Positions 1-6,090 of a stretch of DNA of 23,446 bases are shown here, one piece after another. Both the position numbers and the translations under genes were made by a program. Below the pieces are notes generated by a model. The model worked only from the letters and a program-made list of their open reading frames with translations, searched no databases and was not told the origin of the DNA. Position 1 is the stretch's first letter. Every line of letters starts with the position of its first letter. The stretch spans positions 1 to 23,446 of IMG/VR virus record IMGVR_UViG_3300045921_000042; one strand, 5' to 3'. The stretch comes from a virus.

Positions 1-200
1 TCATGGGCAGCGGCACGACGGCCGAGGTCGCCATCCTGCACGGGCGCCAGTACCTGGGCTGCGAACTGAATGAGGAATACCGGGGCCTCCAGGACGCGCG
101 CATTCGAGGCGCGACGGCTGCACCAAAGCTGGCGCTGGCTCATACATCGCTGTTTGACACGGTGCCGAATAGCACTGCACCAGATCAGGGTGCGGCATGA
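1..200 (+). CDS. DNA methyltransferase, C-terminal fragment (5' end outside window)
   Basis: This is the 3' end of a gene that enters from the left edge; the reading frame is open from position 3. The visible 65 residues begin with MGSGTT followed by AEVAILHGRQYLGCELNEEY. That is the S-adenosylmethionine-binding motif I (usually D-P-F-x-G-S-G-T-T) with the acidic E-L-N loop after the next strand. A motif I this close to the C-terminus is the order found in beta-class N6-adenine or N4-cytosine methyltransferases, where the catalytic DPPY/SPPY motif comes first; here that part lies outside the window. In phages such enzymes usually protect DNA from host restriction. The internal ATG at 3 is not the true start. 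The stop overlaps the next start (ATGA). The base and sequence modified cannot be told from this fragment. Confidence 0.85.
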   Translation, partial: MGSGTTAEVAILHGRQYLGCELNEEYRGLQDARIRGATAAPKLALAHTSLFDTVPNSTAPDQGAA

Positions 201-607
201 AAACCTGCCGCACCTGCAATGAACTCAAACCCGCCGACGCCTACCGAGGCACCAGAAGCGCGTGCCGCAAGTGCGAGAAAGCACGCCGCCGCGAGTGGTA
301 CGCCGCGCAAGCCGTCAAGCCGTACCAGCGGCCCGAGATGAAGGCGTACTACCGCCAGTGGTACACGGCTCATGCCGAGTCCGTGAAGGCCCGCGCCGTC
401 GAGTGGACAAAGGCCAACCCGGGCAAGCGCCGCGACGTGTGCCGGGAAAACACGGCCCGCCAGCGCGCCAAGCTCAGCGATGCCTACGTGCGCCGGATGC
501 TGGCGCAGGAGATGGGGCTGCGCTGCAAAGACATCCCGCAGCCGCTGGTCGAAGCACAACGCGAACTACTCAAGATCAAGAGGTACATCCGTGAACACAG
601 CATCTGA
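197..607 (+). CDS. Zinc-ribbon small phage protein
   Basis: A 136-residue basic protein of unknown role. The N-terminus carries two CxxC pairs (C4/C7 and C23/C26), a compact zinc ribbon of the kind that precedes HNH or endonuclease VII-like nucleases in phages. The rest is rich in Arg, Lys, Trp and Tyr (repeated REWY, YYRQWY and ARAVEW-like helical segments) and looks helical and nucleic-acid binding. I see no HNH or GIY-YIG catalytic motif, so a nuclease call is not supported. The ATG overlaps the methyltransferase stop by four bases, and a CAGGG Shine-Dalgarno-like stretch lies six bases upstream. Co-transcription with the methyltransferase is likely. It could be a DNA-binding regulator or a decayed nuclease. 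Confidence 0.75.
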   Translation: MKTCRTCNELKPADAYRGTRSACRKCEKARRREWYAAQAVKPYQRPEMKAYYRQWYTAHAESVKARAVEWTKANPGKRRDVCRENTARQRAKLSDAYVRRMLAQEMGLRCKDIPQPLVEAQRELLKIKRYIREHSI

Positions 608-3136: not shown

Positions 3137-5446
3137 ATGTCCATCGACTTCTCCGGCATTCGCGCCGCCAACCCCATCGCCGACGTCGTCGGCCGCTACG
3201 TTGAGCTGCGCCGCGCCGGCACCGAGTACCGCGGGCTCTGCCCGTTCCACGCCGACAAGTCGCCCAGCCTGTACGTCAACCCAAAGAAGGGCAAGGCGTT
3301 CTGCATGGCCTGCCACTGGGCAGGCGACGCGATCGACTTCGTCGCCGAGTACGAGTCCTGCGACCTGGCGGAAGCCGCGCGCAAGCTGGGGCACGACGAG
3401 CTGCCCAAGGACCGACCCGCGCCGGCGCCGCTGCCGCCGGACACGTCGGACGAGTGGCGCCCGATCTTGCCCGTGCCGGCCGACGCGCCGGCCTACGACC
3501 CGGCTCAGACGTTCAACCCGAAGCGCGGCCGATTCGTCCGCTACCGGCCGGTCGCGACCTGGCCGTACCGCGACGCCGCCGGCGATCTGCTGGGCTACGT
3601 GCTGCGCCTCGAGATCGACGGCGCCAAGATCACCCCGACCATCACCTACTGCCAGCACAAGGACGGCACGCGCCGCTGGTGCGCGCGCCCGTTCCCCGTC
3701 CAGCGGCCGCTCTACGGCCTCGACAAGCTCGCCGCGAGGCCCGAGGCGCCCGTCGTCGTGGTAGAGGGTGAGAAAGCTGCAGACGCCGCGCAGGCGGCCT
3801 TGCCGCGCATGGTCGTCGTCACCTGGCCCGGTGGCACCAACGGCGTGCGCTGGGCCGACTTCTCGCCGATCGAGCTGCGCGACGTGACGTTCTGGCCGGA
3901 CGCCGACCTCGTCGGCATCGAGGCCATGCTGGCGATCGCCGCCAAGGTTCCCCTCAAGCGCACCCGCTGGATCAACACGGACGGCCTGCCCAAAGGGTTC
4001 GACGCGGCCGACGTCGAGGGCAGCATCCCCGCGTTCTGCAAGGAGCGCGTCACCGACGTGGCGCCGGTGGTCGACCGCCCGGCCGCCGAGGGAAGCGAAC
4101 CAGAGAGGGGTGCCCAAGTCGCAGACGAACCGGGCGGTCGTGGTGCGGATGATGCCAGCCCGGAGCCCTCTGCAGCAACGGAGCCGCCGCCGGCAATTGA
4201 GGGCGAGGTCGTCGACCTGCCGCGCACCCCGTCGGGCTCGGCCTACGCCCAGCTCACGAGCTGGTCATCGCTCGACCTGGTGCTCTCCGACAAGGGCGTG
4301 CCGGTGGCGAACATGGACAACGCCGCGCGCCTCCTCGAGCGGCACCCCGACATGCAGGGCCGGTTCTGGTTCGACGAGTTCCAGCGCCGTGTCTACTCGA
4401 CATGGAACCCCGCCGGCACCGAGCAGGAATGGAGCGACGCCGACGACGTGCGGCTCGCACTGTGGATGCAGCGGACCATGGGCATCGGCCGCATGGCCGT
4501 TGGCACCGCGCGCGACGCCGTCACGGCCGTGGCCATGGCCCACAAGCGAAACGAGGTGCACGAGTGGCTGCGCGCGCTAGAATGGGACGGGGTCGCCCGC
4601 CTGTCCCGCATGCTGCCCGAGGCGTTCGGCACCGTCGACACGCCATACACCCAGGCCGTCGGCCGCTGCTGGCTGGTGTCCATGGTGGCCCGCGCGCTGG
4701 ACCCGGGCTGCAAGGTCGACACGATGCCGGTGTTCGAGGGCGACCAGGGCCTGCGCAAGTCGACCGCGATGCAGACGCTAGTCGGCGCCCGCTGGTTCGC
4801 CGAGGCCTCGGAGAGCCCGACGTCCAAGGACTTCTACCAGGTGCTCACCGGCAAGCTGCTGGTCGAGATCGCCGAGCTCGATGCTTTCTCGAAGGCCGAG
4901 GTCAACACGATCAAGCGCGTGGTCACGTGTCGGGTCGACCGCTACCGGGCGCCCTACGGCCGCCGGGCCGAGGATCACCCCCGCGCCTGCGTGTTCGCCG
5001 GCACGACGAACCGCGACGACTGGAACCGCGACGAGACCGGCGCCCGCCGCTTCTGGCCCGTGGCCTGCACCGCCGTCGACGTCGAATGGCTGGCCCGCCA
5101 CCGCGACCAGCTGTTCGCCGAGGCCGTCGAGCTCTACGAGGCCGGCTCCCCGTGGTGGGACGTGCCCAGGGAGGACGCCGAGCGCGAGCAGGAAGCACGC
5201 CGCGCGTCCGACGAATGGGAGGAGGTCATCGCCGACTGGACCGTCGGCAAGTGGGAGGTCACGGTCGGCGACGTCCTGCAGCACGCCCTCGGGGTCGCGC
5301 CCGAGCACTGGGACAAGGCCATGCAGATGCGCGCGGCCAACTGCCTGCGCGTGCTGGGCTGGAGGCGCACGACCGCGCGCCGCGGCTCGAAGGTCGTCAA
5401 GATGTGGCTTCGTGGCGGTAACGGCGGTAACGACGCCCCCTTCTAA
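3137..5446 (+). CDS. Primase-helicase: CHC2 zinc finger, TOPRIM-like, VapE-type P-loop domain
   Basis: A 769-residue replication protein. Residues 10-75 form a DnaG-type CHC2 zinc finger with ligands C35, H38, C56 and C59 (CPFH and CMAC). Residues 205-260 look TOPRIM-like: VVVVEGEKAADA with E210, then FWPDADL with D255 and D257, the E and DxD metal-binding signature. An acidic, Pro-rich linker covers about 320-350. The C-terminal part (about 400-700) is VapE/DUF5906-like, with Walker A GDQGLRKST (535-543, K541), Walker B LLVEIAELD (ending near D582), a sensor-like FAGTTNRDDW and an ETGARRFWP arginine motif. The expected role is priming and helicase loading or unwinding at the phage origin, as in P4-alpha-like proteins. 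A GGGAG ribosome-binding site supports the start. The last codons contain two GGTAAC boxes of the repeat block that follows. Confidence 0.9.
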   Translation: MSIDFSGIRAANPIADVVGRYVELRRAGTEYRGLCPFHADKSPSLYVNPKKGKAFCMACHWAGDAIDFVAEYESCDLAEAARKLGHDELPKDRPAPAPLPPDTSDEWRPILPVPADAPAYDPAQTFNPKRGRFVRYRPVATWPYRDAAGDLLGYVLRLEIDGAKITPTITYCQHKDGTRRWCARPFPVQRPLYGLDKLAARPEAPVVVVEGEKAADAAQAALPRMVVVTWPGGTNGVRWADFSPIELRDVTFWPDADLVGIEAMLAIAAKVPLKRTRWINTDGLPKGFDAADVEGSIPAFCKERVTDVAPVVDRPAAEGSEPERGAQVADEPGGRGADDASPEPSAATEPPPAIEGEVVDLPRTPSGSAYAQLTSWSSLDLVLSDKGVPVANMDNAARLLERHPDMQGRFWFDEFQRRVYSTWNPAGTEQEWSDADDVRLALWMQRTMGIGRMAVGTARDAVTAVAMAHKRNEVHEWLRALEWDGVARLSRMLPEAFGTVDTPYTQAVGRCWLVSMVARALDPGCKVDTMPVFEGDQGLRKSTAMQTLVGARWFAEASESPTSKDFYQVLTGKLLVEIAELDAFSKAEVNTIKRVVTCRVDRYRAPYGRRAEDHPRACVFAGTTNRDDWNRDETGARRFWPVACTAVDVEWLARHRDQLFAEAVELYEAGSPWWDVPREDAEREQEARRASDEWEEVIADWTVGKWEVTVGDVLQHALGVAPEHWDKAMQMRAANCLRVLGWRRTTARRGSKVVKMWLRGGNGGNDAPF

Positions 5447-5484
5447 GTCACTGATCTGTATAGTGTTACTTACTGTTACCACAG

Positions 5485-5512
5485 TTACCACTAACAAAGA
5501 ACATTATAGAAT
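5485..5512 (+). promoter_or_regulatory. Candidate promoter in the AT-rich patch
   Basis: TTACCA (5485-5490) and TAGAAT (5507-5512) are 16 bases apart, matching sigma70 boxes at 4/6 and 5/6 positions. The -35 element overlaps the GTTACC box at 5484, so a protein bound to the boxes could control it. It would read toward the terminase operon. AT-rich origins also match -10 boxes by chance. Confidence 0.35.
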
Positions 5513-5530
5513 AGAGCCCAGCCAGCCCCT

Positions 5531-5562
5531 CGCACACACATACACGCGCGTGTACGCACGCG
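5531..5562. other. 32-base strictly alternating pyrimidine-purine tract
   Basis: Every position from 5531 to 5562 alternates pyrimidine and purine without a break, made of CA/TG and CG steps, with the perfect 14-base palindrome TACACGCGCGTGTA at 5541-5554. Such tracts can adopt left-handed Z-DNA under negative supercoiling, and the palindrome could form a cruciform. It lies between the two groups of GTTAC boxes. The alternation is seen directly; any structural role is inference. Confidence 0.6.
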
Positions 5563-5634
5563 AGAGGCCAAAAAGGCTCAACGCTGTTACCGGTAACGGT
5601 CGGTAACAGCGGTTACAGCCCCAGCGCGTCACCA

Positions 5635-5663
5635 TTGCGCCCAACGCATCACCCCGCTAGGAT
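5635..5663 (+). promoter_or_regulatory. Candidate promoter for the packaging genes
   Basis: TTGCGC (5635-5640) and TAGGAT (5658-5663) are 17 bases apart, just upstream of the terminase small-subunit ATG at 5671. The spacing leaves almost no leader and the -10 overlaps the AGGA that would serve as ribosome-binding site, so an upstream start is also possible. A similar TTGCAT-N18-TAGGCT pair precedes the capsid gene. Confidence 0.3.
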
Positions 5664-5670
5664 TCGCTCC

Positions 5671-6090
5671 ATGACCGGACGACCCACAATCCGCACCGAC
5701 GCAATGGTCGACGACATCCTCGCCCGGCTGTCCAACGGCGAGCCGCTGGCCGCCATCTGCCGCACGCCGGGCTATCCCCACCCCTCGACCTTCCGCGACT
5801 GGGTGAACGCGGACGAGGCCCTTTCCCTCCGGTTCGCGCGCGCGAGAGAGGCCGGCTTCGATGCGATCGCCGAGGAAGCGCTCGAGATCGCCGACGGCGC
5901 CCCCGGCGCCACCCCAACCGGCACGGTGGACGGCGCCGAGGTGATGAACCGCAAGCTCCGCATCGAGACCCGCCTCAAGCTGCTGGCCAAGTGGGACCCC
6001 AAGCGCTACGGCGACCGCGTCGAGCTCGCCGGCGACGCCAGGGCCCCGCTCACGGTGCACGTCGTCAAGCTGACCGATGGCGGGCAGTAA
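5671..6090 (+). CDS. terS: Terminase small subunit
   Basis: A 139-residue DNA-recognition subunit of the packaging motor. The N-terminal part (about residues 11-48) is a helix-turn-helix region (MVDDILARLSNGEPLAAICR followed by a P-S-T-F-R-D-W-V recognition-helix pattern). The C-terminal part carries the family-typical NRKLRIETRLKLLAKWDPKR then YGDRVEL, a segment seen in many small terminases of this group. I choose the ATG at 5671 over a TTG at 5635, because AGGA lies at a suitable distance before the ATG and the homologous start is M-x-G-R-P. It overlaps the large-subunit gene by 14 bases, which supports coupled translation and complex formation. Confidence 0.88.
   Translation: MTGRPTIRTDAMVDDILARLSNGEPLAAICRTPGYPHPSTFRDWVNADEALSLRFARAREAGFDAIAEEALEIADGAPGATPTGTVDGAEVMNRKLRIETRLKLLAKWDPKRYGDRVELAGDARAPLTVHVVKLTDGGQ

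Follow-up and report, generated by a model that had tools for sequence, protein, structure and literature searches.

The origins that most closely resemble the arrangement considered here have so far been described for phage satellites, namely the SaPIs and other PICIs, and belong to a known kind of which we report a probable phage example. The C-terminal domain of SaPI Rep recognizes iterons located directly downstream of its gene (PMC7581432), and rep-ori segments of SaPIbov1, SaPI1, and EfCIV583 drive autonomous plasmid replication, with EcCICFT073 among the elements tested (PMC6092414). The latter report states that the PICI origin layout is common to no other replicon. Two further systems share some of these features. 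The putative origin of SCCmec Cch2 involves an initiator helicase, short repeats downstream of its gene, and binding by a C-terminal domain (PMC7581432), and the origin of pRN1 lies just downstream of the gene for ORF904, a primase–helicase with a winged-helix domain (PMC4234260).

We analyzed a 23.4-kb phage genome fragment (hereafter the window) that carries a block of short repeats at the 3′ end of a primase–helicase gene. This block is in all likelihood the origin of replication of the phage, and it very probably represents the SaPI/PICI rep-ori kind in a phage. On the best reading of the data, the origin would be bound by the VapE initiator that the phage itself encodes. Because the window is only a fragment of the genome, further origins may exist elsewhere. 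The features of the locus are as follows.

3137–5446, plus strand: initiator gene, whose product of 769 amino acids is a fusion of a CHC2 zinc-ribbon primase module and a VapE-type AAA+ helicase (Pfam, PHROGs, 7pds).
5213–5413, plus strand: DNA encoding the C-terminal winged helix (residues 693–759), the predicted box-binding domain (AlphaFold2 model).
5417–5422 and 5426–5431, plus strand: boxes A1, both GGTAAC, within the final codons of the initiator gene; unchanged in the close relative L009.
5465–5489, minus strand: boxes A2, the inner left run, with GTTAC(T) at 5465 and GTTACC at 5475–5480 and 5484–5489, spaced by 10 and 9 bp; unchanged in L009.
5485–5512, plus strand: promoter-like sequence TTACCA-16-TAGAAT (consensus scan only; one found, 0.1 expected).
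5490–5515, no strand: AT-rich stretch and candidate melting site, the lowest-GC 26-mer of the window (23% GC versus 69% for the window).
5531–5562, no strand: alternating pyrimidine–purine tract CGCACACACATACACGCGCGTGTACGCACGCG, perfect over 32 bp and Z-DNA-prone.
5586–5616, both strands: boxes B, with GTTACC at 5586–5591 (minus), GGTAAC at 5592–5597 (plus), GGTAAC at 5602–5607 (plus), and GTTAC at 5612–5616 (minus); partly kept in L009.
5671–6090, plus strand: Sf6-type small terminase gene, terS (Pfam Sf6_terminase, E = 5e-30).

The initiator matches the Pfam families VapE-like_dom (E = 3e-74) and Zn_ribbon_DnaG (E = 1e-22) and the PHROGs annotation DNA helicase/primase. An AlphaFold2 model of residues 380–769 (mean pLDDT 94.6, pTM 0.88) places a predicted winged helix, composed of three helices followed by two strands and modeled with pLDDT above 90, after the ATPase core. 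The DNA that encodes this domain stops 3 bp before the first box, and thus the specificity domain and its presumed target adjoin within approximately 400 bp. The best Foldseek match of the model is 7pds (‘PriRep1 with dsDNA’, TM 0.82), and a search of the PDB with the family profile likewise recovers 7pds (‘Similar to D. nodosus vapE’, E = 4e-85). This entry is a staphylococcal VapE-type protein solved with DNA, which we take to be SaPI1 Rep, and it is the closest solved relative of the window initiator.

The locus has several elements in common with the rep-ori regions of SaPI1, SaPIbov1, and EcCICFT073: a self-loading initiator helicase homologous to Rep, a DNA-binding domain (here the predicted winged helix) C-terminal to the ATPase core, and an origin immediately 3′ of the initiator gene, with boxes at 5417–5616 around a gene end at 5446 and a similar placement in relatives. 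However, the window locus belongs to a tailed phage that encodes a terminase, portal, capsid, and tail of its own, whereas a PICI satellite as a whole lacks virion genes of its own. Downstream of the block lie genes for the Sf6-type small terminase, a terL-like protein, a portal/connector, a major head protein, and tail proteins, and it is from these virion genes that we identify the element as a tailed phage. The small terminase gene is not counted as part of the replication module because the array also occurs without it. Upstream of the module, a small gene at window positions 197–607 gives weak PHROG matches to endonuclease VII-type families. The window differs from the satellites in other respects as well: its primase module is DnaG-like (CHC2) whereas the primases of SaPIbov1 and SaPI5 are AEP-type, the box words differ among all of these elements, and its first boxes lie inside the gene. 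The core of the window block also carries the 32-bp alternating tract.

The remaining systems are more distant. For Cch2, only three 5-nt direct repeats and no two-sided array are described, and the helicase belongs to the D5/Primase_Cterm group. The pRN1 replicon depends on a stem-loop of approximately 100 nt instead of a set of iterons, and its primase is AEP-type. A λ-type arrangement, in which iterons lie inside an O-type gene and a separate helicase loader is present, does not describe the locus, as the initiator has no O-type family match in Pfam or PHROGs and the boxes are located at the 3′ end of, or behind, the helicase gene. Phage P4 α is a satellite primase–helicase that replicates from its own cognate origin, and the earlier note had drawn its comparison with proteins of this type. 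The domain build of α differs from that of the window protein, which joins a CHC2 zinc ribbon to VapE and matches DUF5906 (Pfam) only below the cut-off of that family; the SaPI/PICI Rep (VapE) initiator is the comparison that fits. PMC6092414 names α together with its cognate site.

A count of exact sites bore out the repeat inventory of the earlier note, which had listed seven full GGTAAC/GTTACC hexamers, two looser copies, and no further full hexamer in the window. All seven exact sites of the window fall within 5417–5607, and the looser GTTAC copies are at 5465 and 5612. The number for the whole window (expectation 2.4), a count that the note had proposed to set against shuffled controls, equals the largest found in 100 shuffles. 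The clustering exceeds that of local dinucleotide shuffles: among 300 of these, no hexamer of comparable GC content (at most three G/C) reached more than five copies per 250 bp versus seven in the block, and GGTAAC itself never exceeded two. The first two boxes indeed lie in the last codons of the gene, as had been noted, where the reading frame runs R-G-G-N-G-G-N-D-A-P-F-stop. The boxes form two groups (5417–5489 and 5586–5616), and the spacing of 9 to 10 bp claimed for them holds inside the groups but shrinks to 6 bp across a perfect 12-bp palindrome, GTTACCGGTAAC, which is present at 5586–5597 as described. A stem was also correctly recognized, but its arms, CGCTGTTACCG at 5582–5592 and CGGTAACAGCG at 5601–5611, are 11 bp long rather than nine.

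The AT-rich stretch that the note had placed between the groups is the AT-richest 26-mer of the window. That ranking was missed at the time, as was the alternating tract, which also lies between the two groups, is the only alternating run of at least 14 in the window, and was matched in length by none in 400 simulations. A scan for intrinsic terminators found none. GC-skew, proposed in the earlier note as a check, has no clear switch at the block, neither in the window nor in a 43.6-kb relative, and thus lends no support to the origin assignment.

The close relatives reveal which parts of the block persist. In L009, whose helicase is 94% identical to that of the window, none of the five A-side boxes has changed although their spacers have, and the B-side boxes are partly degraded. 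In L008 (66% identical), the layout matches but the word has become GGTAGCAA, and all seven copies of this word in the 43.6-kb contig fall in the block at the matching place. Boxes containing GTTACC are found in L021, whose helicase is 34% identical, and in L067.

We then surveyed 180 VapE helicases drawn from virus contigs, bacterial genomes, and phage records. These were reduced to 73 at 70% identity, of which 71 had enough downstream sequence. A stretch starting 120 bp ahead of the stop codon and ending 1.1 kb past it was scored by the number of copies of one 7-mer within 350 bp, and 734 windows taken from the same loci served as controls. At least six copies were found for 49% of the 71 non-redundant helicases versus 2.2% of the controls, and at least five copies for 68% versus 6.5%; a clear array is absent in about a third. 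After setting aside a few best 7-mers that were coding repeats or chance, 40 arrays consisted of two tandem runs flanking a core, and in 36 of these 40 the runs are mirror images (binomial P ~1e-7, with random tie-breaking). The spacing is most often 9 bp, the median gap is 101 bp, and the cores have a GC content of 44% versus 60% for the loci. Alternating runs of at least 14 occur in approximately 38 to 39% of related cores versus a mean of 4% and a maximum of 15% in dinucleotide shuffles.

The box word varies by phage and includes GGTAAC, GGTAGCAA, TGTCCCA, GGTTGGG, and TGTTGAC. The same plan with other words was found in the annotated phages Pseudomonas U5, Hamiltonella APSE-1, Marinobacter PS3, Paenibacillus Pd_22F, Staphylococcus st30, and Streptococcus Javan405, and in the Pseudomonas U5-type group the array lies beyond a small intervening gene, more than 450 bp past the helicase. 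Of the annotated phages examined, Burkholderia Mica and Bacteroides BT12 did not evidently follow the plan. Thus, the geometry is conserved (mirror-image runs, 9-bp spacing, and an AT-rich core of approximately 100 bp) but the word is not, and conservation of the block in related phages, on which the earlier note had made its proposal depend, applies to position and geometry and not to the exact hexamer. The similarity of box words correlates weakly with that of the winged helix (Mantel rho 0.10) and of the ATPase core (0.12; partial 0.06, P = 0.13), and at this sampling no covariation specific to the winged helix was seen, so that covariation does not bear out cognate recognition.

Plasmids that carry a VapE gene present the arrangement in its most reduced form. 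Microcystis p2-NIES88 (NZ_AP024567.1, locus L289; 3,117 bp) consists of the VapE gene and one small ORF, and its array has nine copies of GGTAGGG in mirror-image runs around an AT-rich core. In Enterobacter pE76_003 (CP042502.1, locus L293), nine GTAACCA/TGGTTAC boxes at 3140–3330, nearly the word of the window, follow the VapE gene as mirror-image runs with an AT-rich core between them. There are 12 copies on pKNA06, 10 on p1318-5, and five of one word on pGO128 (4.3 kb); 7-mer copy counts revealed no such array on pCENA543d or on a Comamonas plasmid. That a two-gene circle carries a VapE gene together with its array argues strongly, if circumstantially, for a replicon able to sustain itself, and p2-NIES88 would be a natural minimal replicon of this kind.

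Several other functions for the block were weighed. The region upstream of terS is a common place for terminase recognition sites, and the block lies directly upstream of this gene, as would be expected for a cos or pac site at which packaging starts after binding of the small terminase encoded next to it. However, arrays of at least five copies precede just 9% of 70 related terS genes (half of them one TGCAGCA-repeat family) versus the 68% found downstream of VapE genes, the array follows the helicase without an adjoining terS in Pseudomonas phage U5, APSE-1, and L021, and arrays are present on the VapE plasmids too. As arrays do not go with terS, we rejected this function, which is scarcely credible. 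An operator array is somewhat easier to envision, but is also improbable: the boxes would bind the helicase or a repressor and control a promoter in the AT-rich stretch for the terS and head genes, acting as a switch rather than as an origin. The promoter-like sequence does overlap both the AT-rich stretch and the final A2 box, and it may drive terS, which begins downstream, 55 bp beyond the last box of the block. Nevertheless, arrays built on this geometry are also found in places with no late operon behind them, among them the 3.1-kb plasmid with one other ORF, and a repressor operator would have no need of paired mirror-image runs enclosing an AT-rich core of approximately 100 bp. Operator and origin functions can coexist, and initiator binding might also gate late transcription through this promoter-like sequence.

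There is only a slim chance that the boxes bind a host factor or form a chance cluster with no role in replication. GGTAAC boxes also occur inside an unrelated replication-initiator gene at locus L049, and thus the word is not exclusive to phages with VapE; yet a single host factor would not show a different word in each related phage, and chance is excluded by the shuffles and by a geometry conserved under differing words. The L049 boxes, seven copies of GGTAAC/GTTACC at 678–874, lie within a gene matching phrog_2509 (‘replication initiation protein’), a family different from VapE, in a manner reminiscent of λ O and with the same word as the window.

The best-supported reading is the one that the earlier note had considered plausible, a self-origin adjoining the primase–helicase gene: arrays follow VapE genes, and not terS, across very distant phages and plasmids, and the homologous SaPI Rep uses an iteron origin directly 3′ of its gene (PMC7581432, PMC6092414). 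What the analysis shows is a clustered set of boxes, whose position and geometry are conserved, and a homologous initiator for which a winged helix is predicted. In the model that we infer from this, the GGTAAC-type boxes would be bound by the winged helix at the C terminus of the VapE-type initiator, and the two largely mirror-image runs, with their spacing of approximately 9 bp, would position one initiator ring on each side of the core. These rings could then melt the AT-rich stretch between them, perhaps helped by the supercoil-absorbing alternating tract, and load as two helicases facing opposite ways for a bidirectional start, with synthesis presumably primed by the fused DnaG-like primase module.

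The layout also occurs in phages and on two-gene plasmids, which bears on the statement that it is confined to PICIs (PMC6092414) and points to a single replication module common to satellites and phages. A literature search, with most subscription papers outside its reach, found no description of the layout for VapE phages. More tentatively, and with slightly less than even confidence, we propose that tailed phages, PICIs, and minimal plasmids might constitute a single replicon class, defined by a self-loading VapE/Rep initiator and, directly behind its gene, mirror-image runs of boxes spaced by 9 bp around a melting core, often with a Z-DNA-prone tract in the core that works in melting. In such a class, the geometry would be fixed and word turnover so fast that the origin of each phage lineage is private. 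For many phages without an annotated origin, two mirror-image runs of boxes spaced by 9 bp directly behind a VapE-type helicase gene provide a rule for finding one. Since the geometry stays constant while the words change, direct tests become possible both of origin specificity and of how phages and satellites avoid or exploit one another's initiators.

Some loci depart from the common plan. The helicases of L010, L012, L014, and L013 are approximately 52% identical to that of the window and have no array at the gene end. Instead, two boxes (GCTACCCA or GGTGGCC) spaced by 11 bp are located approximately 350 bp downstream (7137–7148 in L010, L012, and L014), and a second pair lies approximately 570 bp downstream in L014 (7352–7363) and in L013, whose boxes fall within 5293–5521; these pairs perhaps represent a reduced or shifted origin. 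Finally, a Lysobacter dokdonensis contig (L190, 5001–6182) carries a VapE helicase of a bacterial genome, approximately 59% identical to that of the window and followed by GGGAAGG/CCTTCCC boxes, and this locus gives a clue to the phage's host group.
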